Source of the DNA: Micromonospora antibiotica
GTDB lineage: Bacteria; Actinomycetota; Actinomycetes; Mycobacteriales; Micromonosporaceae
Assembly (NCBI RefSeq): GCF_017599305.1
Contig: NZ_JAGFWR010000005.1
Location: 124,001-188,000, forward strand
Direction of reading: 5' to 3'
Length of the DNA stretch: 64,000 bases
Position 1 is the first letter of the stretch; each line of letters opens with the position of its first letter. The position numbers and the translations under genes are program-made. Shown in pieces: positions 8,638 to 20,040 of the stretch. Below the pieces are notes generated by a model, which worked only from the letters and a program-made list of their open reading frames with translations, was not told the origin of the DNA and did no database searches.

Positions 8638-9159
8638 TCAGTTGGCGACGAACAGGTGGAACGGCTTGCTCGACACCGAACCGCCGGAGCTGTACGTCTG
8701 GATGAAGACGCCGTTCGGGGTCTGGTTGCGGGGCGCGACCGAGATCTCGCCGGCCGGCGGCACGTTGAACTGGTCGTTGGTGCCGATGGTGGCCTGGAAC
8801 GCCTTCCCGACCACGCTGTAGTCGAGCAGCACCTGGTACTGGCCGGTGCCGTACTTGGTCGACGACACGACGTTCGCCGAGTGCTGGAGCAGGGTGCCGT
8901 CGCTGGCGACGACGGCCCAGGCGACCGAACCCGCAGCCGGCGGGGCGAGCGAAACCTTCAGCGCGGCGCGGGCCTGCTTGGCTTCGGCTGCCGTCACCGG
9001 CGGCTGACCGGTGGCACCGGCCAGCCGGGCCCCCGGCTGAGCCACCTCGGCCGGGGCCTTGGTCGTGGGCTGGGCGGCGGCGATCCCGCCGCCGGCCAGG
9101 GTGAGCGCCAGGACGCCGAGCGTCACCGCCGCCGCCTTACGCCTGAAGAATGTGGCCAT
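8638..9159 (-). CDS. Small secreted protein of unknown function
   Basis: This 173-residue protein has a clear signal peptide (basic start FFRRK, hydrophobic core, AAA cleavage site near residue 29), an Ala/Pro-rich stretch and a beta-rich C-terminal domain without cysteines. I do not recognise a family. ATG 9159 has a GGGAG-type ribosome binding site and directly precedes the signal peptide. It is followed by a strong hairpin, so it is probably transcribed alone. Confidence 0.75.
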   Translation of the reverse strand: MATFFRRKAAAVTLGVLALTLAGGGIAAAQPTTKAPAEVAQPGARLAGATGQPPVTAAEAKQARAALKVSLAPPAAGSVAWAVVASDGTLLQHSANVVSSTKYGTGQYQVLLDYSVVGKAFQATIGTNDQFNVPPAGEISVAPRNQTPNGVFIQTYSSGGSVSSKPFHLFVAN

Positions 9160-9506
9160 GACAGGTCTCCCTCTTGTGACCGTGGCGATACGGCCGGCCC
9201 ACCGTTCGGAGAGCCGGATGGGTCTGGTGCGGACGGGCCGGAAATGACGCGGACAGTAGAGTTCCATCCGCGTCGGAAATGTTGACCGATCAACACTCCC
9301 GACCGGCCTGAGCTGGGATTACTACGCTCTGTTGCGGCACCTCAACGAGGAGGAACCTAACACCGACAAAAGCGGAGCGTCAATAGCGGACCAATCCGTT
9401 TTGCCATCTCGAAAACGATGTTGAAAATTGCGAAAGATGAACTCTCGACCATTCACGAATGGATGCCGGGGCGCTGCGGACGGCGTCGGTCACTAGGCTG
9501 ACCGCC
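9160..9506. other. Intergenic region with lower GC content
   Basis: This is a divergent promoter region of 347 bp, visibly less GC-rich than the flanking genes. It holds a short inverted repeat GTTGA-CCGA-TCAAC at 9281-9294, upstream of the secreted protein gene, and the leaderless promoter at 9494. I see no convincing gene. Confidence 0.4.
9494..9499 (+). promoter_or_regulatory. Probable -10 box for a leaderless gene
   Basis: TAGGCT sits exactly 7 nt before GTG 9507, and no ribosome binding site is present. This matches the box before the genes at 1098 and 59397. Confidence 0.5.
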
Positions 9507-10490
9507 GTGCTCACGAGCCTGACGCCGCCCACCACCCGTCGCCCCGCAGCCACCCTGCTCTGCTGGCTGGCGGTGGCCCCCGGCCTCGCCTGGGCGGTGG
9601 TCCGCCTCGCCGGGCTGGACCGGGGCCCGCTGGTGCAGGCGCTCGCGTTCACCCCGTACGTGGCGGGGTGGAGCCTGCTGGTGTTGACGCTGACCCTCGC
9701 CCTGCGACGCCGGTGGCCGGCGGTGGCCGCGGCGGTGGCGGCACTGGCCCTGGTCGGGGCGGTGGCACCCCGCGCCCTGCCCACCGGGCAGCCGACGGTC
9801 GACGGGCCCGAGCTGCGGCTACTCACCGCCAACCTGCTCAAGGGCGGTGCCGACGCGGCCACCCTGGTCGAGCTGGTCCGCCGGCACCGGGTGGACGTGC
9901 TCACCGTGCAGGAGTTCACCCCGGCGGCGCGCGACGCCCTCGACCGGGCCGGCCTCGCCGGCCTGCTCCCCCACCGCCAGCTCAACCCGGAGGTGGGCAC
10001 CACCGGCTCCGGGCTCTACGCCCGTTTCCCGCTCTCCGACGGCGGCTTCCGCCGCAACGCCGGCTTCGCGTTCACCCAGGCGTACGCGACGGTGGCGGTG
10101 CCGGACGCACCCCCGCTGCGGGTGGAGTCGGCCCACCCGGCGGCACCCTGGTCGGTCGGGGTGGTCGGCGAGTGGCGCACCGACCTGGCCGGCCAGCCGC
10201 GCGCCACCCCCGACGGTCAGCTCGGCATCCTCGCCGGGGACTTCAACGCCACCCTCGACCACGCCCCGCTGCGCGCCCTGCTGGCCAGCGGCTACGTGGA
10301 CGCCGCCGACGCCGTCGGGGCCGGCCTGGTGGGCACCTGGGGCCCGTACCACGGCACCCCGATCCCGCCGGTGACCATCGACCACGTCCTGGTCGACCGC
10401 CGGATCGCCGTCCGCGCGGTCACCGTCCACCGGGTGCCCGCCACCGACCACCGTGCCGTGCTGGCCACCCTGCGGCTGCCCACCCGCTGA
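9507..10490 (+). CDS. Membrane-anchored endonuclease/exonuclease/phosphatase family protein
   Basis: This 327-residue protein has three hydrophobic N-terminal segments (about residues 15-100) and then an EEP-fold domain facing outside. Catalytic landmarks are TANLLKG, QEFTP, GDFNAT and the C-terminal TDHRAV. This layout is common in actinobacteria, where the substrate (DNA, phospholipid or phosphosugar) is usually unknown. GTG 9507 is preferred over the upstream ATG because TAGGCT lies 7 nt before it. It ends 15 bp from the convergent cimA stop. Confidence 0.85.
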   Translation: MLTSLTPPTTRRPAATLLCWLAVAPGLAWAVVRLAGLDRGPLVQALAFTPYVAGWSLLVLTLTLALRRRWPAVAAAVAALALVGAVAPRALPTGQPTVDGPELRLLTANLLKGGADAATLVELVRRHRVDVLTVQEFTPAARDALDRAGLAGLLPHRQLNPEVGTTGSGLYARFPLSDGGFRRNAGFAFTQAYATVAVPDAPPLRVESAHPAAPWSVGVVGEWRTDLAGQPRATPDGQLGILAGDFNATLDHAPLRALLASGYVDAADAVGAGLVGTWGPYHGTPIPPVTIDHVLVDRRIAVRAVTVHRVPATDHRAVLATLRLPTR

Positions 10491-10505
10491 GGCCGGGGCG
10501 GCGGA

Positions 10506-12089
10506 TCAGACCCGGGCCCGGTCCAGGCCGTAGGTGAGGGCGTCGACCAGGGCGTGCCAGGAGGCTTCGACCACGTTGGGGTGCACACCGACGGTGGTCC
10601 AGTCGCGGCCGGTCCCGTCGGCGGTCTCCACCAGCACCCGGGTCACCGCCCCGGTGCCGTGGGTGCCCTCCAGGATGCGCACCTTGTAGTCGGCCAGCTC
10701 GAAGTGGCGCAGCTCCGGGTAGTACCGCAGCAGTCCGACCCGCAGCGCCTCGTCGAGGGCGTTGACCGGTCCGTTGCCCTCGGCGGTGGCGATCACCCGC
10801 TCACCGCGTACCCGGATCTTCACGGTCGCCTCGGAGACCACCGCACCGTCCTCCCGGTGCTCCACCAGCACCCGGTACGACTCCAGCGCGAACGGTCGCA
10901 CCGGGGCGGCGTCCGGCAGCTCGGAACGGACCAGCAGCTCGAACGACGCGTCGGCGGCCTCGAACGACCAGCCGCCCGCCTCCAGCTCCTTGACCCGGGT
11001 GGTCACCTTCGACACGGCGTCCGGATGGCCGGCCAGGTCAAGACCCAGCTCGCGGCTCTTCAGCTCGATGCTGGCCCGGCCGGCCATCTCGGTCACCAGG
11101 ATCCGCATGTCGTTGCCCACCACCGACGGGTCCACGTGGTTGTAGAGCAACGGGTCGACCTTGATCGCGCTCGCGTGCAGCCCCGCCTTGTGGGCGAAGG
11201 CGGCGGCCCCGGCGTACGCCTGGTGGGTGTCGGGGGCGATGTTGGCGATCTCGGCGATGGCGTGCGAGACCCGCACCATCTGTTCCAGGCAGCCGTCGGG
11301 TAGGACGGGCAGCCCGAGCTTGAGCTGGAGGTTCGCCACGACGGCGAAGAGGTCGGCGTTGCCGGGGCGTTCGCCGTACCCGTTGGCGGTGCCCTGCACG
11401 TGCCGGACCCCGGCCTCGACGGCCGCGATGGTGTTGGCCACCGCGCAGGCGGTGTCGTTCTGGGCGTGCATGCCGAACAGCTCTGGGGCGATCCCGGTCC
11501 GCGCGGTCAGGTCGGCGATCGCGGCGGTCACCCGGGACGGGAGCATCCCCCCGTTGGTGTCGCAGAGCACGAACCGCTCGGCCCCGGCGGCGAGCGCGGT
11601 CTCGACCACCGAGGCGGTGTACGCCGGGTCGTGCCGGAACCCGTCGAAGAAGTGCTCACCGTCGACGAAGACCCGTCGTCCCTGCGCGACCAGGTGGGCG
11701 ACCGTGTCCCGGACCATCGCCAGGTTCTCCGCGCCGGTGGTGCGCAGGGCGCGTTCGACGTGCCGGATGTCGGCCTTGGCGACCAGGGCGACGGCCGGGG
11801 TCTGCGCGTCGAGCAGCGCGCGCACCTGCGGGTCGTCGGCGACGGCGATCCCGGCCTTGCGGGTGGCCCCGAACGCGACCAGCAGGGCGTGCCGCAGGTC
11901 CAGCTCGGTGCGGGCGCGGCGGAAGAACTCGGTGTCCTTCGGCACGGCGCCCGGCCATCCGCCCTCGATGAAACCGACGCCGAACTCGTCGAGCAGCCGG
12001 GCCACCGCCAGCTTGTCGATCACCGAGTAGCTGAGCCCCTCGCGCTGGGCGCCGTCGCGCAGCGTGGTGTCGTAGACCTGGAACGTCAT
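10506..12089 (-). CDS. cimA: (R)-citramalate synthase
   Basis: This 527-residue enzyme condenses pyruvate with acetyl-CoA to citramalate, the first step of threonine-independent isoleucine synthesis. The HMGL/isopropylmalate-synthase barrel begins with the active-site TTLRDGAQREG (residues 8-18) and contains HAQND and the NGYGERPGNAD loop. The C-terminal LeuA-type regulatory domain (about 400-527) is present. CimA is distinguished from LeuA by overall layout and its early TTLRDGAQ motif. ATG 12089 follows an AAGGGA. The 145 bp upstream carry a leader peptide and intrinsic terminator, so expression is probably attenuated by isoleucine supply. Confidence 0.92.
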   Translation of the reverse strand: MTFQVYDTTLRDGAQREGLSYSVIDKLAVARLLDEFGVGFIEGGWPGAVPKDTEFFRRARTELDLRHALLVAFGATRKAGIAVADDPQVRALLDAQTPAVALVAKADIRHVERALRTTGAENLAMVRDTVAHLVAQGRRVFVDGEHFFDGFRHDPAYTASVVETALAAGAERFVLCDTNGGMLPSRVTAAIADLTARTGIAPELFGMHAQNDTACAVANTIAAVEAGVRHVQGTANGYGERPGNADLFAVVANLQLKLGLPVLPDGCLEQMVRVSHAIAEIANIAPDTHQAYAGAAAFAHKAGLHASAIKVDPLLYNHVDPSVVGNDMRILVTEMAGRASIELKSRELGLDLAGHPDAVSKVTTRVKELEAGGWSFEAADASFELLVRSELPDAAPVRPFALESYRVLVEHREDGAVVSEATVKIRVRGERVIATAEGNGPVNALDEALRVGLLRYYPELRHFELADYKVRILEGTHGTGAVTRVLVETADGTGRDWTTVGVHPNVVEASWHALVDALTYGLDRARV

Positions 12090-12130
12090 CGCGAGTCCCT
12101 TTCTTCGGACCGTCGAACCTTGCGGGGGGC

Positions 12131-12162
12131 AACAAAAAGACCCCCCGCGGATGCGGGAGGTC
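12131..12162 (-). terminator. Intrinsic terminator/attenuator in the cimA leader
   Basis: On the minus strand a 10-bp stem (arms 12153-12162 and 12139-12148, one G-U/A-C variant position) with a 4-nt loop is followed by TTTTT at 12138-12134. A U-run terminator upstream of cimA but downstream of a small ORF is the classic attenuator position. Confidence 0.8.
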
Positions 12163-12163
12163 T

Positions 12164-12193
12164 GCGCGCTCGGCGGAGGGGAGGCCGGCGCGC
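12164..12193 (-). promoter_or_regulatory. Leader hairpin abutting the cimA leader-peptide stop
   Basis: GCGCGC at 12188-12193 pairs with GCGCGC at 12164-12169, extended by CCG/CGG with one bulge. The stem begins at the leader stop codon, so a ribosome terminating there would cover it. Its loop contains CCTCCCC, which could pair with the G-run of the terminator and act as an antiterminator. Confidence 0.5.
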
Positions 12194-12234
12194 TAGCTGC
12201 CAATAATGCGGGCGGAGCTGGTCACGGTGGCCAC
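12193..12234 (-). CDS. cimA leader peptide with tandem isoleucine codons
   Basis: A 13-codon ORF reads MATVTSSARIIGS. GGGAG lies 7 nt before GTG 12234, and a second in-frame GTG at 12225 would give MTSSARIIGS. The two isoleucines are ATT ATT, a codon almost unused in these genes, where ATC dominates. The stop is followed immediately by a hairpin and then a U-run terminator before cimA. This arrangement is what ribosome-mediated attenuation by isoleucyl-tRNA requires. Confidence 0.7.
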   Translation of the reverse strand: MATVTSSARIIGS

Positions 12235-12376
12235 TCTGCCACTCCCACCCGAATCTGGGAGACAGAATCCACATCCCGGGACGGGATGTGTGGGACGTCT
12301 CCCCTCGGGTACCTCAGATGCGGACACGAAGCGCTTTTCTCCGATAACGACTACGACAGTCGAGGCAGGAGTTCCG

Positions 12377-12835
12377 ATGGACAGGCTCGATCCGCACACC
12401 GCCCACGGCACCACGGACCCGATGGTCGACGACGGTCAGGGCGCGATCGCCGGCGGCGCCCCCGGTGGGGCGTTCAACCCGTGGAGCTACCGCGACGAGG
12501 CCGGGGTCGCCGACGCCGACCTGGTCGGCTACAAGGTCGAGGCGACCGACGGCGGCATCGGCAAGATCGACGAGGCGAGTCACGAGGTCGGCGGCAGTTA
12601 CCTGGTCGTCGACACCGGGCCGTGGATCTTCGGCAAGAAGGTGATGCTCCCCGCCGGCACCATCAACCAGGTCGACCACGACGACCGCAAGGTCCACGTC
12701 GACCGCACCAGGGACCAGATCAAGGCCGCCCCCGAGTACGACGAGACCAGCCACAGCGACCCGGCCTACCGGGACAAGCTGGGCGGCTACTACGACGACA
12801 CCTACGGCAACCTCCCCCCGGGCACCGCCCGGTAG
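12377..12835 (+). CDS. PRC-barrel domain protein
   Basis: This 152-residue acidic, soluble protein has a PRC-barrel in its middle (about 45-115: LVGYKVEATDGGIGKIDEAS, then VVDTGPWIFGKKVMLPAGTI). It ends in a Tyr/Asp-rich tail. PRC-barrel proteins of this type are common in actinobacteria and often stress-induced, but the role is not known. ATG 12377 follows an AGGAG at 6 nt. It diverges from the cimA leader. Confidence 0.85.
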   Translation: MDRLDPHTAHGTTDPMVDDGQGAIAGGAPGGAFNPWSYRDEAGVADADLVGYKVEATDGGIGKIDEASHEVGGSYLVVDTGPWIFGKKVMLPAGTINQVDHDDRKVHVDRTRDQIKAAPEYDETSHSDPAYRDKLGGYYDDTYGNLPPGTAR

Positions 12836-12935
12836 GCGACAGGCGGGCGGTCCGACGCACCGGCAGACCTCGGACACCAGACCCGTCGATCGACGACGAC
12901 GGCCGACGGGGCGGCATCCACGCCCCGCCGGCCGT

Positions 12936-12941
12936 TACCGT
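12936..12941 (+). promoter_or_regulatory. Probable -10 box for a leaderless gene
   Basis: TACCGT is 6 nt before GTG 12948, and no ribosome binding site is present. Confidence 0.45.
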
Positions 12942-12947
12942 GTCCGG

Positions 12948-13703
12948 GTGAACCCCACCGAGGACAGCCGCCGTATCCCGTTCTCCGCGATGTTCAACTT
13001 CCGCGACGTCGGCGGCTATCCCGGCCACGACGCCCGGACCGTCCGCTGGGGGCGGCTCTACCGGTCGGACTCCCCACACCGCATCGACGGCACCGACCGG
13101 GAGGCGTTCAGCGCCCTCGGCATCCGCACCGTGATCGACCTGCGCCGCCCGACCGAGGTGGACCGGGACGGCCGGGTGCCCGACCTGGACGGCCTGGCCT
13201 ACCGGCACATCCACCCCGAACACGCCGACTGGGCGCTGACCCGCCACGAGCCGGAGTCCAGCCTGGCCCGCTACCTCGCCGACCGCTACGCCGACCTCGC
13301 CGAGACCGGCACCGCCGGGCTGGCCGAAGCCGTCGGCCTGATCGCCGACAGCACCAACGCCCCCGTCCTGGTGCACTGTGTGGCGGGCAAGGACCGCACC
13401 GGCATCGTCTGCGCGCTGACCCTGGCGGTGCTCGGCGTCGACGACGACCGCATCGCCGAGGACTACGCGCTGAGCAGCGAGGCGTCCCAGCGGTTCAGCG
13501 CCTGGCTGGCGGCGTCCATGCCGGAGGCCGAAGCACCGCCCGCGCCCTTCCTGGGCTCCCCCGCCGAAGCGATGTCGCTCTTCCTCGTCGAGCTGCGCCG
13601 ACGGCACGGCTCGGTCGAGGACTACCTGCGCCACGCCGGCGTCACCGACGCCCAGCTCGCCGCCCTGCGCGACCACCTGCTGGAGCCGCCCACGCCGCAG
13701 TGA
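12948..13703 (+). CDS. PtpB-type tyrosine/serine protein phosphatase
   Basis: This 251-residue cytosolic phosphatase carries the P-loop HCVAGKDRTG with nucleophile Cys144 and Arg150. The lysine-aspartate pair after the glycine is characteristic of the PtpB (Y_phosphatase3) family, whose members can act on phosphotyrosine, phosphoserine and phosphoinositides. The N-terminal FNFRDVGGY and the WGRLYRSD segment fit the family. Length is normal. It ends 20 bp before the convergent ilvE stop. Confidence 0.9.
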   Translation: MNPTEDSRRIPFSAMFNFRDVGGYPGHDARTVRWGRLYRSDSPHRIDGTDREAFSALGIRTVIDLRRPTEVDRDGRVPDLDGLAYRHIHPEHADWALTRHEPESSLARYLADRYADLAETGTAGLAEAVGLIADSTNAPVLVHCVAGKDRTGIVCALTLAVLGVDDDRIAEDYALSSEASQRFSAWLAASMPEAEAPPAPFLGSPAEAMSLFLVELRRRHGSVEDYLRHAGVTDAQLAALRDHLLEPPTPQ

Positions 13704-13723
13704 CCCCCTCGGGGGGCCGCCGG

Positions 13724-14821
13724 TCAGCTCAGGTGCGTCACCCAGCCGTGCGGGTCGGGGGCTTCCCCGCGCTGGACCGCCACCAACTGCTCCCGCAGCG
13801 CCGAGGTGGACCGGCCCGGCTCACCGCCGCCGATCACGAACTCGCCGCCGGGGTGCCGCACCCGCGCGACCGGGGTGATCACCGCGGCGGTGCCGCAGGC
13901 GAAGACCTCACGCAGCCGGCCGCTCTCGGCGTCGGCCTGCCACTCGTCGAAGCTCACCCGGCGTTCGACGACCCGGTGCCCGGAGGCGGCGGCCAGGTCG
14001 AGCAGCGCGTCCCGGGTGATGCCCGGCAGGATCGTGCCGGTCAACGGCGGGGTGACCAGGGTGTTGTCGTCGTAGACGAAGAAGACGTTCATGCCGCCGA
14101 GTTCCTCGACGTAGCGGCGCTCCACCGCGTCCAGGAAGACCACCTGGTCGCACCCGGCCTCGATCGCCTCCGCCTGGGCGGACAGCGACGCGGCGTAGTT
14201 GCCGCCGCACTTGGCCGCGCCGGTGCCACCGGGGGCCGCCCGGGTGTAGTCCGGGGAGACCCAGAGGGTGACCGGCTTGACCCCACCGGCGAAGTACCCG
14301 CCGGCCGGCGAGGCGATGACGCAGTAGAGGTACTCGTTGGCCGGGCGGACACCGAGGAATGCCTCGCTGGCGAACATGAACGGCCGCAGGTAGAGGCTGG
14401 TGTCGGCGCCCTCGGGGATCCAGTCCCGGTCGATCTCGACCAGCTTGCGCAGCGACTCGACGAACAGCTCCGCCGGCAGCTCCGGCATGGCCAGCCGCCG
14501 GGCGGAGGCGATGAACCGGGCCGCGTTGGCCTCCGGCCGGAACATGGTGATCGAGCCGTCAGCCGTCCGGTAGGCCTTCAGCCCCTCGAAGATCTCCTGC
14601 GCGTAGTGCAGGACGGCGGTGGCCGGATCCATCGGGATCGGCGCGCGGGCCTCGACCCGGGGGTCGTACCAGCCCTTGCCGTCGGCGTACCGGATGGTGA
14701 CCATGTGGTCGGTGAAGACCCGACCGAAGCCGGGGTCGACCAGCAGGGCGGCCCGTTCGGCGGCGGATACCGGCGCGGGATTCGGACGGATCTCGAAATC
14801 GAGCATGTCACCACCGCTCAT
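13724..14821 (-). CDS. ilvE: Branched-chain amino acid aminotransferase
   Basis: This 365-residue class IV PLP enzyme transaminates valine, leucine and isoleucine. The PLP lysine is Lys204 in [15 protein letters not shown], and the [13 protein letters not shown] and [14 protein letters not shown] segments are typical of the BCAT family. ATG 14821 has GGGAGG 9 nt upstream, and a further ATG at 14806 would start at the conserved [10 protein letters not shown] possible -10 (TAGGTT, minus strand, 14888-14883) lies upstream. It is the next gene after leuB on the same strand, about 110 bp away. Confidence 0.95.
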
Positions 14822-14930
14822 CGCGCTGACCTCCCTGCGGGTTGACGGCACGCGGGGACCACGCACCGAGCTGCTGTCCAGAAACCTACCCCGAACGGTC
14901 GTTCAGTGGATAGGGCCGCTACCGGCGGGA

Positions 14931-15962
14931 TCAGGCCACCGCGTGCGCGGCGAGCCGGTCCCCCACCTCGTCGGTCCGCAACGCCACACCCGGGGTCCGG
15001 CCGGCCAGCTCGGCGGCGACCGCGCCGGTCACCCGGGCGGCGGCGTCGGCGTGACCCAACTGGTCGAGCAGAAGCGCGGCGGAGAGCACGGCGGCCACCG
15101 GGTCGGCGACCCCCTTGCCGGCGATGTCCGGCGCCGAGCCGTGCACCGGCTCGAACATCGACGGGTACGCCCCGGTGGGGTTGATGCAGCCACTGGCCGC
15201 CAGGCCGATCCCCCCGGTGACCGCGGCGGCGATGTCGGTGAGGATGTCGCCGAACAGGTTGTCGGTGACCACCACGTCGTAGCGCTGGGGCTGGGTGACC
15301 AGGAACATGGCGGCGGCGTCGACGTGCTGGTACTCGGTGGCGACGTCGGGGTGCTCGGCGGCGACGGCCGCGAACGCCCGCGCCCACAGCGAGCCGGCGT
15401 GGGTCAGCACATTGGTCTTGTGCACCAGGGTGACCTTGCGCCGCTCCCGGCGGGCGGCGCGGGCGAAGGCGTCCCGGATGACCCGTTCCACCCCGTGTCG
15501 GGTGTTCAGGCTCTCCTCCGTGGCCACCTCGGCCGGGGTGTCCCGGTGCAGGCTGCCGCCGGCACCGGCGTAGAGGCCCTCGGTGCCCTCCCGGACGACG
15601 ACCAGGTCGACCTCACCCGGCTTGACGTTGACCAGCGGGCCGGGCACGCCGGGCCAGAGCCGGGACGGGCGCAGGTTGACGTACTGGTCGAAGGCGAAGC
15701 GGAGCTTCAGCAGCAGGCCGCGCTCCAGCACGCCCGGCGGCACGGTGGGGTCGCCCACCGCGCCGAGCAGGATGGCGTCGTGGCCGGCCAGCTCGGTCAG
15801 CACCGAGTCGGGCAGCACCTCGCCCGTGCGGTGGTAGCGCGCCGCGCCGAGGTCGTACTGCGTCGCCTCGACCCCGGGGAGCACGGCGTCGAGGACCTTG
15901 AGGGCCTGCGCGACCACCTCGGGTCCGATCCCGTCCCCGGCCACCACCGCGATCCGTGCCAC
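14931..15962 (-). CDS. leuB: 3-isopropylmalate dehydrogenase
   Basis: This 343-residue NAD-dependent decarboxylating dehydrogenase acts in leucine synthesis. It shows GDGIGPEVV at the N-terminus, the substrate-binding [13 protein letters not shown], and the C-terminal [17 protein letters not shown] 15962 has AGGAG at 6 nt. Roughly 100 codons of open frame upstream carry no homology and were excluded. I saw no leader peptide of the cimA or ilvB type in front of it. Confidence 0.95.
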
Positions 15963-16182
15963 CTGCCGCTCCTCACCTCGTCCGCTGGGGTGAACGGTAC
16001 GTCCCCGTCCCGGTTCCCGGTACGAGCCTTCCATTATCTGGGAGGACGAAATGCTCAGCAGGCTCCCAGCCAGCATTCATGGTGCGGTCATCTCCACTGC
16101 CTAGGGTCGGTGCAGGACGGGTCGTGGGGCCCGGGACGGACCGGTCGCGACGTCGCGGCACCGTCGGTGAAGGAGCAGTGTG

Positions 16183-17058
16183 ATGCGGACCGAGCAGCAG
16201 CGGGGGCCAGGCCGACTGGACGAGCAACCGCGCACCCGCTGGGTGGACCAGGCGACATTCTCCCGCCGCCGCCCCGACCTGCGCCTGGGCACCCGCAGCC
16301 ACCGCCTCGACCGGGCCGGTGAAGCGTCCGGCGGCCGGATCACCGTGCAGCACGCCGTCCGGACCGGCACCGCCGAATACTCGCTCCTGCTCAACGCCCC
16401 CGAGGACCTGGGCCGGCGGGTGGTCGGTGACGCGCTGCGCGACGCCGTCGCCGAGCTACGGGCCATCGACCTCACCTACGGGCCGAACCGGCCGGAGAGC
16501 CTGGTCTCCCGGCTGCGGCGCGGCGAGATCAGCCCCGAGTCGTACCCGCCGCTGACCGACCTGGTGGACCGCTGCGCGGCCATGCGGGCCGCCACCGACG
16601 GCTGGTTCGACGCCTGGGCCGTGCCCGGCGGCTTCGACCCCGGCGGCCTGCTCAACGGTTGGGCGGTGGAGCGGGCCGCGGCCCGGTTGCGCGCCGCCGG
16701 CATCACCGACTACGCGGTGCTCTCCGGCGCCGACCTGACGGTACGCGGCCACGCCGCGCACGGCGGCCCGTGGCGGGTGGCGGTGCACCACCCGACCGAC
16801 GGTCGACGGGCCCCGCTGGTGCTGGAGATGACGGCCGGCGCGGTGGGCACCTCCGGGGTGACCGGCCGGCAGGGGCACGTCGTCGACCCGCACACCGGTG
16901 AGTCGGCCCGGCAGCTGGTCGCCGCGACCGTCGTCGGGCCGGACCTCGCCGTCGCCGACGCCTACGCGACCGCGTTGTACGCGGCCGGGCCGGTGGGGCT
17001 GGCATGGTTCCGCACCGACTCGGCATATCAGGCTCTCTTCGCCCACCGGCGCCGCTGA
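16183..17058 (+). CDS. ApbE-like FAD:protein FMN transferase
   Basis: This 291-residue protein belongs to the ApbE family, which attaches FMN from FAD to threonine residues of flavoproteins. The family motifs are present: FDPGGLLNGWAVERA, then GTSGVTGRQGHVVDPHTG, and the C-terminal DLAVADAYATAL with the metal-binding Asp/Thr. There is no signal peptide or lipobox, so this is a cytosolic form like others in actinobacteria. AAGGAG precedes GTG 16180 and ATG 16183, and the ATG has the better spacing. A strong hairpin follows. Confidence 0.85.
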   Translation: MRTEQQRGPGRLDEQPRTRWVDQATFSRRRPDLRLGTRSHRLDRAGEASGGRITVQHAVRTGTAEYSLLLNAPEDLGRRVVGDALRDAVAELRAIDLTYGPNRPESLVSRLRRGEISPESYPPLTDLVDRCAAMRAATDGWFDAWAVPGGFDPGGLLNGWAVERAAARLRAAGITDYAVLSGADLTVRGHAAHGGPWRVAVHHPTDGRRAPLVLEMTAGAVGTSGVTGRQGHVVDPHTGESARQLVAATVVGPDLAVADAYATALYAAGPVGLAWFRTDSAYQALFAHRRR

Positions 17059-17129
17059 GCGGTGCCGCGGCGCGTCGGCCGACCTGTGGAGGGGGTCCAC
17101 GGGGTGGCGCGGTCGACGGGCCGGCGATC

Positions 17130-17163
17130 GGCCCCCACGGTCTCGGCAACGACCGTGGGGGCC
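17130..17163. terminator. 13-bp perfect hairpin after the apbE-like gene
   Basis: Arms 17130-17142 and 17151-17163 match exactly around an 8-nt loop (tcggcaac), 71 bp past the stop. The rest of the 356-bp gap to 17415 shows nothing else. Confidence 0.65.
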
Positions 17164-17414
17164 GGTCAGCGACGAGTGCGCGTGGCTCGCGCATTCGAGG
17201 GGTGCAGGCCGGCCGGACGGACGTTCGGCCTCGTCACCCGAAGACGGGTCGACGTCCGACGCTGCCGGTGACCGCTCCGATACGCTAGCGAATCGACGCA
17301 ACTCGACGCAAGAGTCTCCACAGCGGACCGTGTCCTCCGGACACTCGAACCACCTGCGGGAATCACGGCGGGTCAGTGTCGCCCGCAGGAGCGCGTGATG
17401 GCACGCTGTCCGCC

Positions 17415-17771
17415 GTGAGTTTCGATCTGAGCGTGTGGGCCCTCCACGACGGGGCCACGCCCGAGGACGTCCGGGCGGCGGTGCGGCGGTGCCACGAGGG
17501 GCAGCACGGCGAGCGGTATCCGGACCCCCGGGTGGTGGGCTTCTACCGGGCCCTCACCGCGTCCTACCCCGACCGGCCCGCCCACCAGGGCACCCCGTGG
17601 GAGGTCTCGCCGTTGCACGCGGCGTCCGACCATGTGGCGTTGCACCTCGTCCCGACCTGCGACGACCAGGTGCTGCTCGACATCGAGCGGTTGGCCGGCG
17701 AGTACGACCTGATGCTCTTCGACCCGCAGGACGGCTCGGTCTACCCGCCACCCTCCCGCGTCACCCGCTGA
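17415..17771 (+). CDS. Small conserved actinobacterial protein, function unknown
   Basis: This 118-residue acidic soluble protein starts SFDLSVWALHDG, contains CHEG near residue 27, TPWEVSPL and HVALHLVP, and ends LMLFDPQDGSVY. I recognise the pattern from small uncharacterised actinobacterial proteins but know no function. GTG 17415 was chosen because the conserved start is there and CACGCT lies 7 nt upstream, fitting a leaderless mRNA. Confidence 0.7.
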   Translation: MSFDLSVWALHDGATPEDVRAAVRRCHEGQHGERYPDPRVVGFYRALTASYPDRPAHQGTPWEVSPLHAASDHVALHLVPTCDDQVLLDIERLAGEYDLMLFDPQDGSVYPPPSRVTR

Positions 17772-17884
17772 CCCGACCCGCACGAACCGGGTGTGTGTCG
17801 CGTGGTCGGCGAACGCCCGCTCCTGCCGCGACCCGGCGCACCCGCACCGGCTCGGTCCCGCGTGGCAGTCCGTCGGGTGTGGAC

Positions 17885-17920
17885 GGCGCAGGGCCCGGCC
17901 GGGTGGCCGGGCCCTGCGCC
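17885..17920. terminator. 16-bp perfect hairpin between convergent genes
   Basis: Arms 17885-17900 and 17905-17920 are exactly complementary with a GGGT loop. The hairpin sits between the 3' ends of the small protein gene and serA and could stop transcription from both sides. Confidence 0.75.
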
Positions 17921-17935
17921 TGCGTGCGGGTGCGA

Positions 17936-19534
17936 CTACTCGTCGCGCAGGTCCGCCGCGCTGGCGGCGGTCGCGCCGATCGAGTCGGCCGCGGAGGTGA
18001 GCAGGTCCGCGCCGAGCGCCTGGTCGACGGTGAGGGTCATCAGGGTCTCACCGCCGGCCTCCCGGCGGGCCACCTGCATCGCGGCGATGTTGATGCCGGC
18101 CTCACCGAGCAGCGTGCCGACGGTGCCGACCACGCCCGGCCGGTCGGCGTAGCGCAGGAAGAGCAGGATGCCCTCGGCGCCGATCTCCACGTCGAACCCG
18201 TCGACCTCGGTCAGCTTGAGGACGTCCCGGGCACCGGCGTGGGCGACCGTGCCGGAGACGCTGACCGTACGGCCGTCGGGCAGCGCACCCCGGATGGTGA
18301 CCAGGTTCGGGTGGTCCGCCGTCTCGGCCTGGGTGACCAGGGCCACCTCGACGCCCCGCTCGGCGGCCAGGTGCGGCGCGTTGACGTAGGTGACCTGCTC
18401 CTCGACGACCGAGCTGAACAGCCCCTTGGTGGCGGCGAGCTTGAGCACCGACACGTCGTGGTTGACGATCTCGCCGCGCACCTCGACGGTGACGCTGGCG
18501 GCCACCCCGCCGGCCACGGCGGTGAACGCCCGGCCCAGCTTCTCGGCCAGCGGCAGCAGCGGCCGGACGTCCTCGGCGACGACGCCACCGGCCTGCACGT
18601 TCACCGCGTCAGGCACGAACTCGCCCTGCAACGCCAGCTTGACGCTCTTGGCCACGGCCAGGCCGGCCTTGTCCTGCGCCTCGTGGGTGGACGCGCCCAG
18701 GTGCGGGGTGGCCACCACGTTGTCGAAGGCGAACAGCGGGGACGAGGTGCACGGCTCCTTGGCGTACACGTCGACGCCGGCGCCGGCGACCCGGCCCTCG
18801 GCGATCGCGTCGGCCAGCGCCTGCTCGTCGACCAGCCCGCCCCGGGCGGCGTTGACGATCCGGACGCCCGGCTTGACGATCGCCAGCTCCTTCTCGCCGA
18901 TCAGGCCGACCGTCTCCGGGGTCTTGGGCAGGTGGATCGAGATGAAGTCGGCCTCCCGCAGCAGCTCCTCCAGCCCCACCAGGCGGACGCCGAGCTGGGC
19001 GGCGCGGGCCGGCTGGATGTAGGGGTCGTACGCGATCAGCCGGGTGCCGAAGGCGGCGATGCGGGACGCGAAGAGCACGCCGATGCGGCCGAGGCCGACC
19101 ACGCCGACGGTCTTGCCCTGCAACTCGACGCCGGTGTACTTCGACCGCTTCCACTCGCCGGCCTTGAGCGCGGCGCTGGCGCTGGCGGTGTTACGCGCGA
19201 CGGCGAGCAGCAACGCGACGGCCTGCTCGGCGGCGGAGACGATGTTGGAGGTGGGAGCGTTGACGACCATGACGCCCCGCGCGGTGGCGGCCGGAACCTC
19301 GACGTTGTCCAGCCCGACGCCGGCCCGGGCGACCACCTTCAGACGCGGCGCGGCGGAGATCGCCTCGGCGTCGATCTGCGTGGCACTGCGCACGATCACC
19401 GCGTCGGCCTCGGCCAGCGCGGAGAGCAGGGCCGGGCGGTCGGTGCCGTCGACGTGGCGCACGTCGAAGTCGTGCGCGAGCACCTCGATGGCGGCGGGGG
19501 CGAGTTCTTCGGCGATCAGTACGACAGGATTCAT
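17936..19534 (-). CDS. serA: D-3-phosphoglycerate dehydrogenase
   Basis: This 532-residue enzyme oxidises 3-phosphoglycerate, the first step of serine synthesis. It has the NAD-binding VGLGRIG, the catalytic RGGLVDE and HLGAST segments, then the intervening (ASB) domain and a C-terminal ACT domain (about 455-532), the long form typical of actinobacteria. The ACT domain suggests serine feedback. ATG 19534 is supported by a GAGG just upstream and a possible -10 TAAAAT (minus strand, 19559-19554). Confidence 0.95.
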   Translation of the reverse strand: MNPVVLIAEELAPAAIEVLAHDFDVRHVDGTDRPALLSALAEADAVIVRSATQIDAEAISAAPRLKVVARAGVGLDNVEVPAATARGVMVVNAPTSNIVSAAEQAVALLLAVARNTASASAALKAGEWKRSKYTGVELQGKTVGVVGLGRIGVLFASRIAAFGTRLIAYDPYIQPARAAQLGVRLVGLEELLREADFISIHLPKTPETVGLIGEKELAIVKPGVRIVNAARGGLVDEQALADAIAEGRVAGAGVDVYAKEPCTSSPLFAFDNVVATPHLGASTHEAQDKAGLAVAKSVKLALQGEFVPDAVNVQAGGVVAEDVRPLLPLAEKLGRAFTAVAGGVAASVTVEVRGEIVNHDVSVLKLAATKGLFSSVVEEQVTYVNAPHLAAERGVEVALVTQAETADHPNLVTIRGALPDGRTVSVSGTVAHAGARDVLKLTEVDGFDVEIGAEGILLFLRYADRPGVVGTVGTLLGEAGINIAAMQVARREAGGETLMTLTVDQALGADLLTSAADSIGATAASAADLRDE

Positions 19535-19916
19535 CGGTCCTCGTAGACGTCGTATTTTAGGTCGGCCGGGGCGACCGGGCGCCGCGATGCGCCCTGCGCC
19601 GATCCGTGCCATGGCCGTCAGGTGCCGGTCACGCACCTCACCAAGGATCGTAGGGGGCACCCCGGTCGGCATGTCCCGGTCTGCGGGGTGAGGGCCCTCA
19701 CACAGCGTTGTCGCACGCCTGTCATCCCCCGTTCATCCGGCCCGGGAGCGCGGCGGGTGGGCCGATCGGGGCCGATGAGGCATCGATCACCCCGTCCCGC
19801 CTGGTGAACCGGCCAGCGCGGACCGCGACGGCGACCGCCGGGACGGGTGACGCCTCGGCGGGGACCGGCGGTGGCAGCGGACCGGCCCCGGCAGCTGAGG
19901 AACGTGCCCACGCAGA

Positions 19917-19964
19917 AAGCGGTATGACTGGCAGGCATATTTATGCCTTCCAGTCATACCGCTT
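19917..19964. repeat. Near-perfect 23-bp inverted repeat, AT-richer than its surroundings
   Basis: Arms 19917-19939 and 19942-19964 pair with a single mismatch (C19932/T19949) around a 2-nt loop. The central GGCATATTTATGCC is markedly AT-rich. It lies 125 bp past the ilvC stop and may end the ilvBNC transcript, although there is no U-run. Confidence 0.8.
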
Positions 19965-20040
19965 CACGTCACCAGTTCGACCGGTCCGCGACACGCCCGG
20001 CGGGAGCCGGAGGCCCGGTCGGGGCCGACGACCCGGGCGG

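Follow-up and report, generated by a model that had tools for sequence, protein, structure and literature searches.

A probable isoleucine-sensing transcription attenuator in the cimA leader of Micromonospora antibiotica and related actinomycetes

The cimA gene of Micromonospora antibiotica is preceded by a short leader that is, with good confidence, a ribosome-mediated transcription attenuator sensing charged tRNA-Ile, and that very probably switches cimA on only when isoleucine is short. The leader is composed of a small upstream open reading frame (uORF) with tandem isoleucine codons, a hairpin that begins at the uORF stop codon (hairpin A) and an intrinsic terminator placed flush with this hairpin. 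Its anatomy is conserved, its helices covary, its spacings are fixed and, in the loci inspected, the residue encoded by the control codons matches the downstream gene.

Results

Anatomy of the cimA leader

The features identified in the window, that is, the whole 64,000-nt stretch of DNA analysed, are collected in Table 1. The original prediction had placed a hairpin at the uORF stop and a U-run terminator upstream of a gene that it took for cimA, and the three elements were borne out: the G of the stop codon is the first base of hairpin A, the terminator hairpin is followed by the U-tract and the gene scores well above the equivalog cut-off. Two terminator-like sites, both on the minus strand, were found in 12000-12500, compared with 0.2 expected from shuffles; the second one (12290-12270) overlaps the palindrome located further upstream. 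The 95-nt leader counted from 12225 folds better than 200/200 dinucleotide shuffles (z -3.6). As the two next upstream ORFs read away from it, the terminator is most likely part of the cimA leader. The first of them (12377-12835, plus strand) has PRC-barrel matches below the Pfam cut-offs and the second one (12948-13703, plus strand) belongs to the tyrosine phosphatase family PF13350, and both are overlapped only by mechanical minus-strand ORFs.

Table 1. Features of the cimA leader region, in window positions.
Feature	Position	Strand	Basis
cimA, citramalate synthase, 527 aa (ATG at 12089, stop at 10506)	10506..12089	-	TIGR00977 equivalog, 592.8 bits, cut-off 450
Shine-Dalgarno-like GAAAGGGA of cimA	12096..12103	-	sequence; 6 nt before ATG12089
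U-tract TTTTTGTTG	12130..12138	-	sequence; closing pair of the terminator stem includes its first T
Intrinsic terminator hairpin AGACCTCCCGC-ATCC-GCGGGGGGTCT, flush with hairpin A	12138..12163	-	terminator search, 1-nt junction, inner pairs covary
Hairpin A (proposed antiterminator), begins at the G of the stop codon	12164..12193	-	upper stem covaries
Leader uORF GTG..TAG, MTSSARIIGS*, probably leaderless	12193..12225	-	sequence; GTG start conserved
Tandem ATT ATT control codons (Ile-Ile)	12202..12207	-	conserved Ile position and ATT usage
Extended -10-like promoter element TGG-CAGAGT	12233..12241	-	conserved hexamer spacing
Conserved palindromic DNA element TCCCGGGATGTGGATTCTGTCTCCC, 5' of the promoter; possible regulator site	12257..12281	-	conserved position

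Conservation of the element

A contig scan, from which the best 80 of 147 named Micromonosporaceae loci were kept, showed the terminator, the hairpin and the Ile codons together in 79/80 loci by script, and a variant of the element was visible by eye in the 80th (L124), so that the RII or Ile-run peptide expected in this family is indeed kept. A covariance model (R1) was then built from 67 sequences, and matches to these are by construction. R1 found a full-length match in 70/80 regions fetched from additional genera within the family and further families within the order, 62 of the 80 having been among its training sequences. At E<=0.01 it matched 263/394 genomes of the class, representing 108/137 genera, a few of which (e.g. 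G086, G087, G098) had also supplied training sequences and most of which had not; with the stricter filters applied, 131/394 class genomes gave no match at this threshold. A draw from the phylum, overlapping with the class draw, contained 73/296 genomes with a match and 223/296 without one. Second and third matches per class genome were inspected in part (G436, G355, G507). M. antibiotica itself has one significant match, the next one (E=1.4) being the opposite strand of the same hairpins, and the plasmid collection contained no match. Among f8 genomes, R1 matched 0/5 of those in which the search for cimA gave no good match (best E 1e-5 to 2e-9), and another f8 genome, outside the five tested for cimA, had a match at E=0.0014.

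For the counts given below, 212 regions could be oriented (L024 and L040 were left unoriented) and 18 without a terminator by script were dropped, leaving 194 loci whose counts are not independent, as L001-L056 largely repeat species of the named set. The element is present in 8 of the 18 dropped regions by eye or model (L042, L049, L052, L124, L183, L208 and L214, and also L206, where the model located it further upstream); the other 10 showed no element by either means.

The fetched regions in which R1 had no full-length match were 10/80 (L185, L187, L189, L190, L199, L201, L202, L203, L207 and L210), and in several of them cimA lies close behind the end of a gene that, judged by eye from a sequence motif, looks like leuB. 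Seven of these 10 genomes have a match before ilvB (E 1e-6 to 0.03, three of the seven being weaker than 5e-4), and these ilvB-head matches (L303-L308, L310) share the strand of cimA and precede it by about 4.6-12.5 kb. Of the remaining genomes, two had no match at E<=0.1 and G074 had only matches without ilvB in the flanks.

The uORF start and the promoter

Where does the uORF begin? The original prediction proposed a 13-codon ORF, GTG12234..TAG12193 on the minus strand, which translates as VATVTSSARIIGS*. Its ATT ATT codons stood, and its start proved to be off by three codons. GTG12234 was rejected because it overlaps the -10 hexamer CAGAGT (12238-12233) and is poorly kept: among the 77 named loci for which a start was called, the codon at this position is GTG in 33 and GTA in 38. 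It is GTG12225, 9 nt inside 12234, that is conserved as the start, and the uORF has 10 codons (MTSSARIIGS). A [TC]ANNNT hexamer was found 5-9 nt before an in-frame start in 182/194 parsed loci, compared with 23% in shuffled controls, and the distance is exactly 7 nt in 156/194, a few start calls (L158, L168, L194, L195) giving implausibly long peptides. The -10-like hexamer of M. antibiotica likewise lies 7 nt before GTG12225. Such a spacing is the signature of a leaderless transcript and hence the uORF is probably leaderless.

The palindrome 5' of the promoter (12281-12257, minus strand) consists of TCCCRNNATGTGGGA plus a second TCCC. The best match to TCCCRNNATGTGGGA reached >=11/13, that is at least 11 letters, in 85/134 loci examined, a score obtained without shuffle control and with a consensus picked from the same sequences that were scored; relative to the start of the uORF, 76 of these 85 matches begin at -57 or -56. 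A BCAA regulator may bind at this palindrome. Across the own genome, the longer palindrome pattern had a single match, its own copy, and therefore no regulon can be read from it. We also observed that ATGTGGGA stands before the ilvB leader in the same window.

Ile codons and fixed spacings

Counted from the start of the first Ile codon to the first paired base of hairpin A, the spacing is 14 nt in 77/79 named and 43/66 fetched loci, the next commonest value being 11 nt (13/66 fetched loci). The gap between the last Ile codon and the hairpin is typically 8 nt in leaders with two Ile codons and 5 nt in leaders with three, which means that the first Ile codon stays in place. The stop codon lies inside or beyond hairpin A in 15/66 fetched loci, so its position is freer than that of the Ile codons, and in 12/66 parsed fetched loci the stretch examined contains a single Ile codon. 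While the Ile codons stay placed, the rest of the leader peptide varies. Isoleucine is written ATT in 146/155 codons of the named leaders and 98/130 of the fetched ones; the background in the window, taken from 34 long ORFs picked by length, is 21 ATT among 425 Ile codons. A second distance is strict as well: hairpin A and the GACC of the terminator are separated by exactly 1 nt in 189/194 loci, and since this junction nucleotide is able to form a pair with the U-tract's first T, the two helices are flush.

Covariation and folding

In alignment A1 (67 sequences), 97.4% of the cells pair, a figure biased upward by the selection of sequences for having a terminator. Two-sided changes are the better measure, and 10/17 consensus pairs changed on both sides compared with 4.5 in shuffles (sd 0.9); the compensatory changes anticipated in the hairpins are therefore present. 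Shifting the partner by one column more than halved the pairing. The base of hairpin A, GCGCGC, is nearly invariant among loci, and its lowest pairs vary so little that covariation is uninformative about them. The T-rich character of the U-tract is kept in A1.

Equilibrium folding of the 194 loci gave the basal pairs of the terminator a mean P of 0.97-0.99 with hairpin A free, masked or absent, the three cases representing the stalled state, the completed state and the terminator alone. Hairpin A did not weaken the outermost A-U pair either (P 0.78 with A free, 0.79 with A masked and 0.68 with A absent). No mutually exclusive antiterminator was visible in these folds, and the search for pairing of the terminator arms with the arms of hairpin A, with its pyrimidine-rich loop or with the GTTG that follows the U-tract disclosed no antiterminator. 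Several candidates were discarded. A pairing between the loop of hairpin A and the 3' arm of the terminator, noticed by eye in the window, was set aside because the loop sequence changes among loci (e.g. L134, L140) and the folds are dominated by the terminator. The partner letters of a three-way junction in the first fold seem not to change together (loci compared by eye, uncounted). A trp-type attenuator (regions 1:2, 2:3 and 3:4) was rejected because equilibrium folding revealed no excluding antiterminator helix. As regards described RNA families, the Rfam scan of 9000-20000 returned three matches at E<=1, all of them elsewhere and below gathering scores, and the scan of 8 related loci returned none at E<=0.5; with no covariance-model match at the element or at these 8 loci, a T-box, a riboswitch or another Rfam cis-regulatory RNA was also rejected.

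Downstream genes and control residues

Among class loci with flanks, comprising 27 of the strongest class-scan matches and 8 class genomes from the phylum listing, cimA is downstream in 35/35. Another 20 class matches, chosen to include two-match genomes (L258 and L267 repeat loci of the 35), have cimA downstream in 17; the remaining three comprise one match in front of ilvB and two in front of a small protein. These second copies of the element before a small gene occur in L250 and L252, and the small product of L252 has a weak match to the ACT domain PF13291 (18.3 bits, below the cut-off of 27). Outside the class, a BCAA gene lies within the fetched ~2 kb in 19/20 inspected matches, mostly stronger ones and from 17 genomes: ilvB in 12, leuB in 3, cimA in 3 and leuA in 1. 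In L278, L279, L281, L282, L290 and L293, ilvB lies behind another ORF, which in all of them except L293 was noted as a short, uncharacterised ORF separating the attenuator from ilvB. The fetched stretch of L283 has none of ilvB, leuB, cimA and leuA; by eye, a prephenate-dehydratase-like ORF follows.

Read by eye, leaders of cimA have Ile before the stop, mostly as II or III, the single leuA leader has LLL, and the ilvB leaders have Val/Leu/Ile mixes. Across the inspected loci, the control residue agrees with the gene that lies downstream. The same architecture was seen in other classes (L277, L284, L291, L294) before leuA, with LLL, and before leuB, with Ile or Val runs. The Ile leader also stands before cimA in the large genus f33 g94, which we presume to be Streptomyces (L257, L258). 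There the leader reads into a much longer hairpin A and the stop codon is off the hairpin base. In L257 and L261 an ilvE homologue ends upstream on the same strand, and consequently the terminator alone is less telling at these loci.

The window contains a second leader, that of ilvB (23827-23738, minus strand), which encodes MSSNRSLRVLT with the codons GTA CTT and has a hairpin at the stop codon with a terminator flush against it. It resembles the cimA leader in having BCAA codons, a hairpin at the stop and a flush terminator, but its control codons are Val-Leu, its hairpin sequences are different and it gave no match to the cimA model at E<=5.

Discussion

The isoleucine attenuation put forward in the original prediction is supported by conservation, covariation and the match between residue and gene; the part that fared less well is antitermination, as no classical antiterminator is visible. 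A model of how the leader may work can be drawn from its anatomy. Transcription would begin at or next to GTG12225 and produce a leaderless mRNA, on whose start codon a ribosome would load and translate MTSSARIIGS behind RNA polymerase. When Ile-tRNA is scarce, the ribosome would stall with the first ATT in the A site and its front edge just before hairpin A, leaving hairpin A able to form. Hairpin A, flush with the terminator base, would then block terminator closure at the polymerase exit, and cimA would be transcribed. When Ile-tRNA is plentiful, the ribosome would reach the stop codon, or run on into hairpin A at loci with a more distal stop. Once there, it would cover the 5' arm of hairpin A, the terminator would close and an RNA of ~95 nt would be released.

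The distances fit this model. In toeprints, the front edge of the ribosome is ~15-16 nt from the P-site codon, which corresponds to ~12-13 nt from the first base of the A-site codon, and with a spacing of 14 nt a ribosome stalled at the first ATT would just clear hairpin A. Given that hairpin A would form in isoleucine scarcity and that a biosynthetic gene is to be on in scarcity, hairpin A should oppose the terminator. As no exclusive antiterminator fold was seen, the antitermination step draws on this geometry and this logic, and as folding offers no pairing route, we propose a steric block of closure by the flush hairpin. The step would thus differ from the classical one. In a more general and more tentative form, which we regard as possible but short of probable, the element would represent a phylum-wide Actinomycetota family of leaderless BCAA attenuators in which a hairpin ahead of the stalled ribosome blocks the terminator sterically and without alternative pairing, the 14 nt and the 1-nt junction being its conserved working dimensions. 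Such a geometry, again put forward with reserve, would be one not seen in trp-type attenuators.

How does this leader compare with known ones? With ilvB-type BCAA leaders it shares a uORF with pathway codons, a terminator between the uORF and the gene, and a hairpin that lies beside the control codons and adjoins the terminator. Experimental precedent for the stall logic comes from ilvBNC of Corynebacterium glutamicum, an adjoining-hairpin attenuator (PMC11857589), and from ilvB1 of Mycobacterium tuberculosis (PMC13236596), although in both accounts the terminator is excluded by another fold or has to compete with one. The C. glutamicum 'fast' attenuator (PMC11857589; ilvB-II motif in PMC10272879, which treats ilvB motifs) has its uORF at the extreme 5' end, treated as leaderless in PMC11857589, BCAA control codons with a hairpin beside them and a terminator adjoining this hairpin. 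The cimA leader has the same arrangement of codons, hairpin and terminator, and its uORF probably also stands at the 5' end. The differences lie in the gene, here cimA, in the control codons, which here are restricted to Ile, and in the hairpins: those of C. glutamicum are described as competing for a GCC triplet, those of cimA adjoin by 1 nt and coexist in the equilibrium folds. The description of M. tuberculosis ilvB1NC (PMC13236596) likewise parallels our reading in its BCAA uORF, in a stall that permits the antiterminator, in a ribosome at the stop that blocks it and in an intrinsic terminator before the gene, but it concerns another gene and LVVI control codons, and it includes two mutually exclusive folds, which were not found for the cimA leader. 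Leaders of ilvB, leuA, leuS, trp and cys genes are listed for Actinobacteria in PMC1262725, and eight leaders of Streptomyces lividans TK24, several of them leaderless, in Table 4 of PMC8079986; like the cimA leader, they encode short peptides with pathway codons and often have terminators. No cimA leader appears among the leaders consulted in these two papers, despite the Ile leader before cimA in the presumed Streptomyces genomes, and none was found in the open-access literature searched, mostly at the level of titles and abstracts; a 2017 RNA-seq study of Actinoplanes SE50/110 may mention one.

The coexistence of hairpin A and the terminator in equilibrium folds also fits another explanation, in which hairpin A is a pause or synchronising hairpin: polymerase would pause ~11 nt after A until the leaderless ribosome opens it, and timing would set termination with Ile-Ile still acting as the sensor. 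A leaderless uORF needs time for ribosome loading, the strict 1-nt junction would fix the position of the pause as well, and a hairpin-induced pause belongs to the C. glutamicum ilvBNC model (PMC11857589). However, pausing alone leaves unexplained how starvation prevents termination, and the fixed 14-nt distance from Ile to hairpin A suggests that A must form during the stall, so we consider this explanation rather unlikely, although it is the strongest of the alternatives.

It is also conceivable that the uORF and the hairpins constitute a partial terminator that acts constitutively, lowering basal cimA expression or protecting the 5' end, with no sensing of isoleucine. In favour of this, replacing the regulatory leader codons of S. 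coelicolor ilvB had no effect on regulation (cited in PMC1262725), a result which indicates that look-alike leaders need not use classical attenuation. Nevertheless, the Ile codons remain fixed in place while the other residues of the peptide vary, they are written with the rare ATT, and at the inspected loci the encoded residues change according to the gene downstream, all of which makes a constitutive role improbable. Least credible of all is an RNA that binds a ligand or a protein (riboswitch, T-box or ppGpp type) with no translated leader. The hairpin bases and the terminator are strongly conserved in sequence, which would suit such an RNA, but the unpaired letters that are conserved form Ile codons, and these share their frame with a start and a stop.

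Returning to attenuation by a ribosome stalled at the Ile codons, the many natural variants of the leader allow tests of how attenuation works where no classical antiterminator is visible. The threonine-independent route to isoleucine starts with cimA. If the attenuation reading is true, an Ile-only leader in 263/394 class genomes would mean that the cimA route is gated separately from ilvBNC, whose enzymes are shared and for which the same genome has a Val/Leu leader, and the ATT codons, hairpin A and the terminator would offer a simple handle on the control of 2-oxobutyrate supply in actinomycetes.
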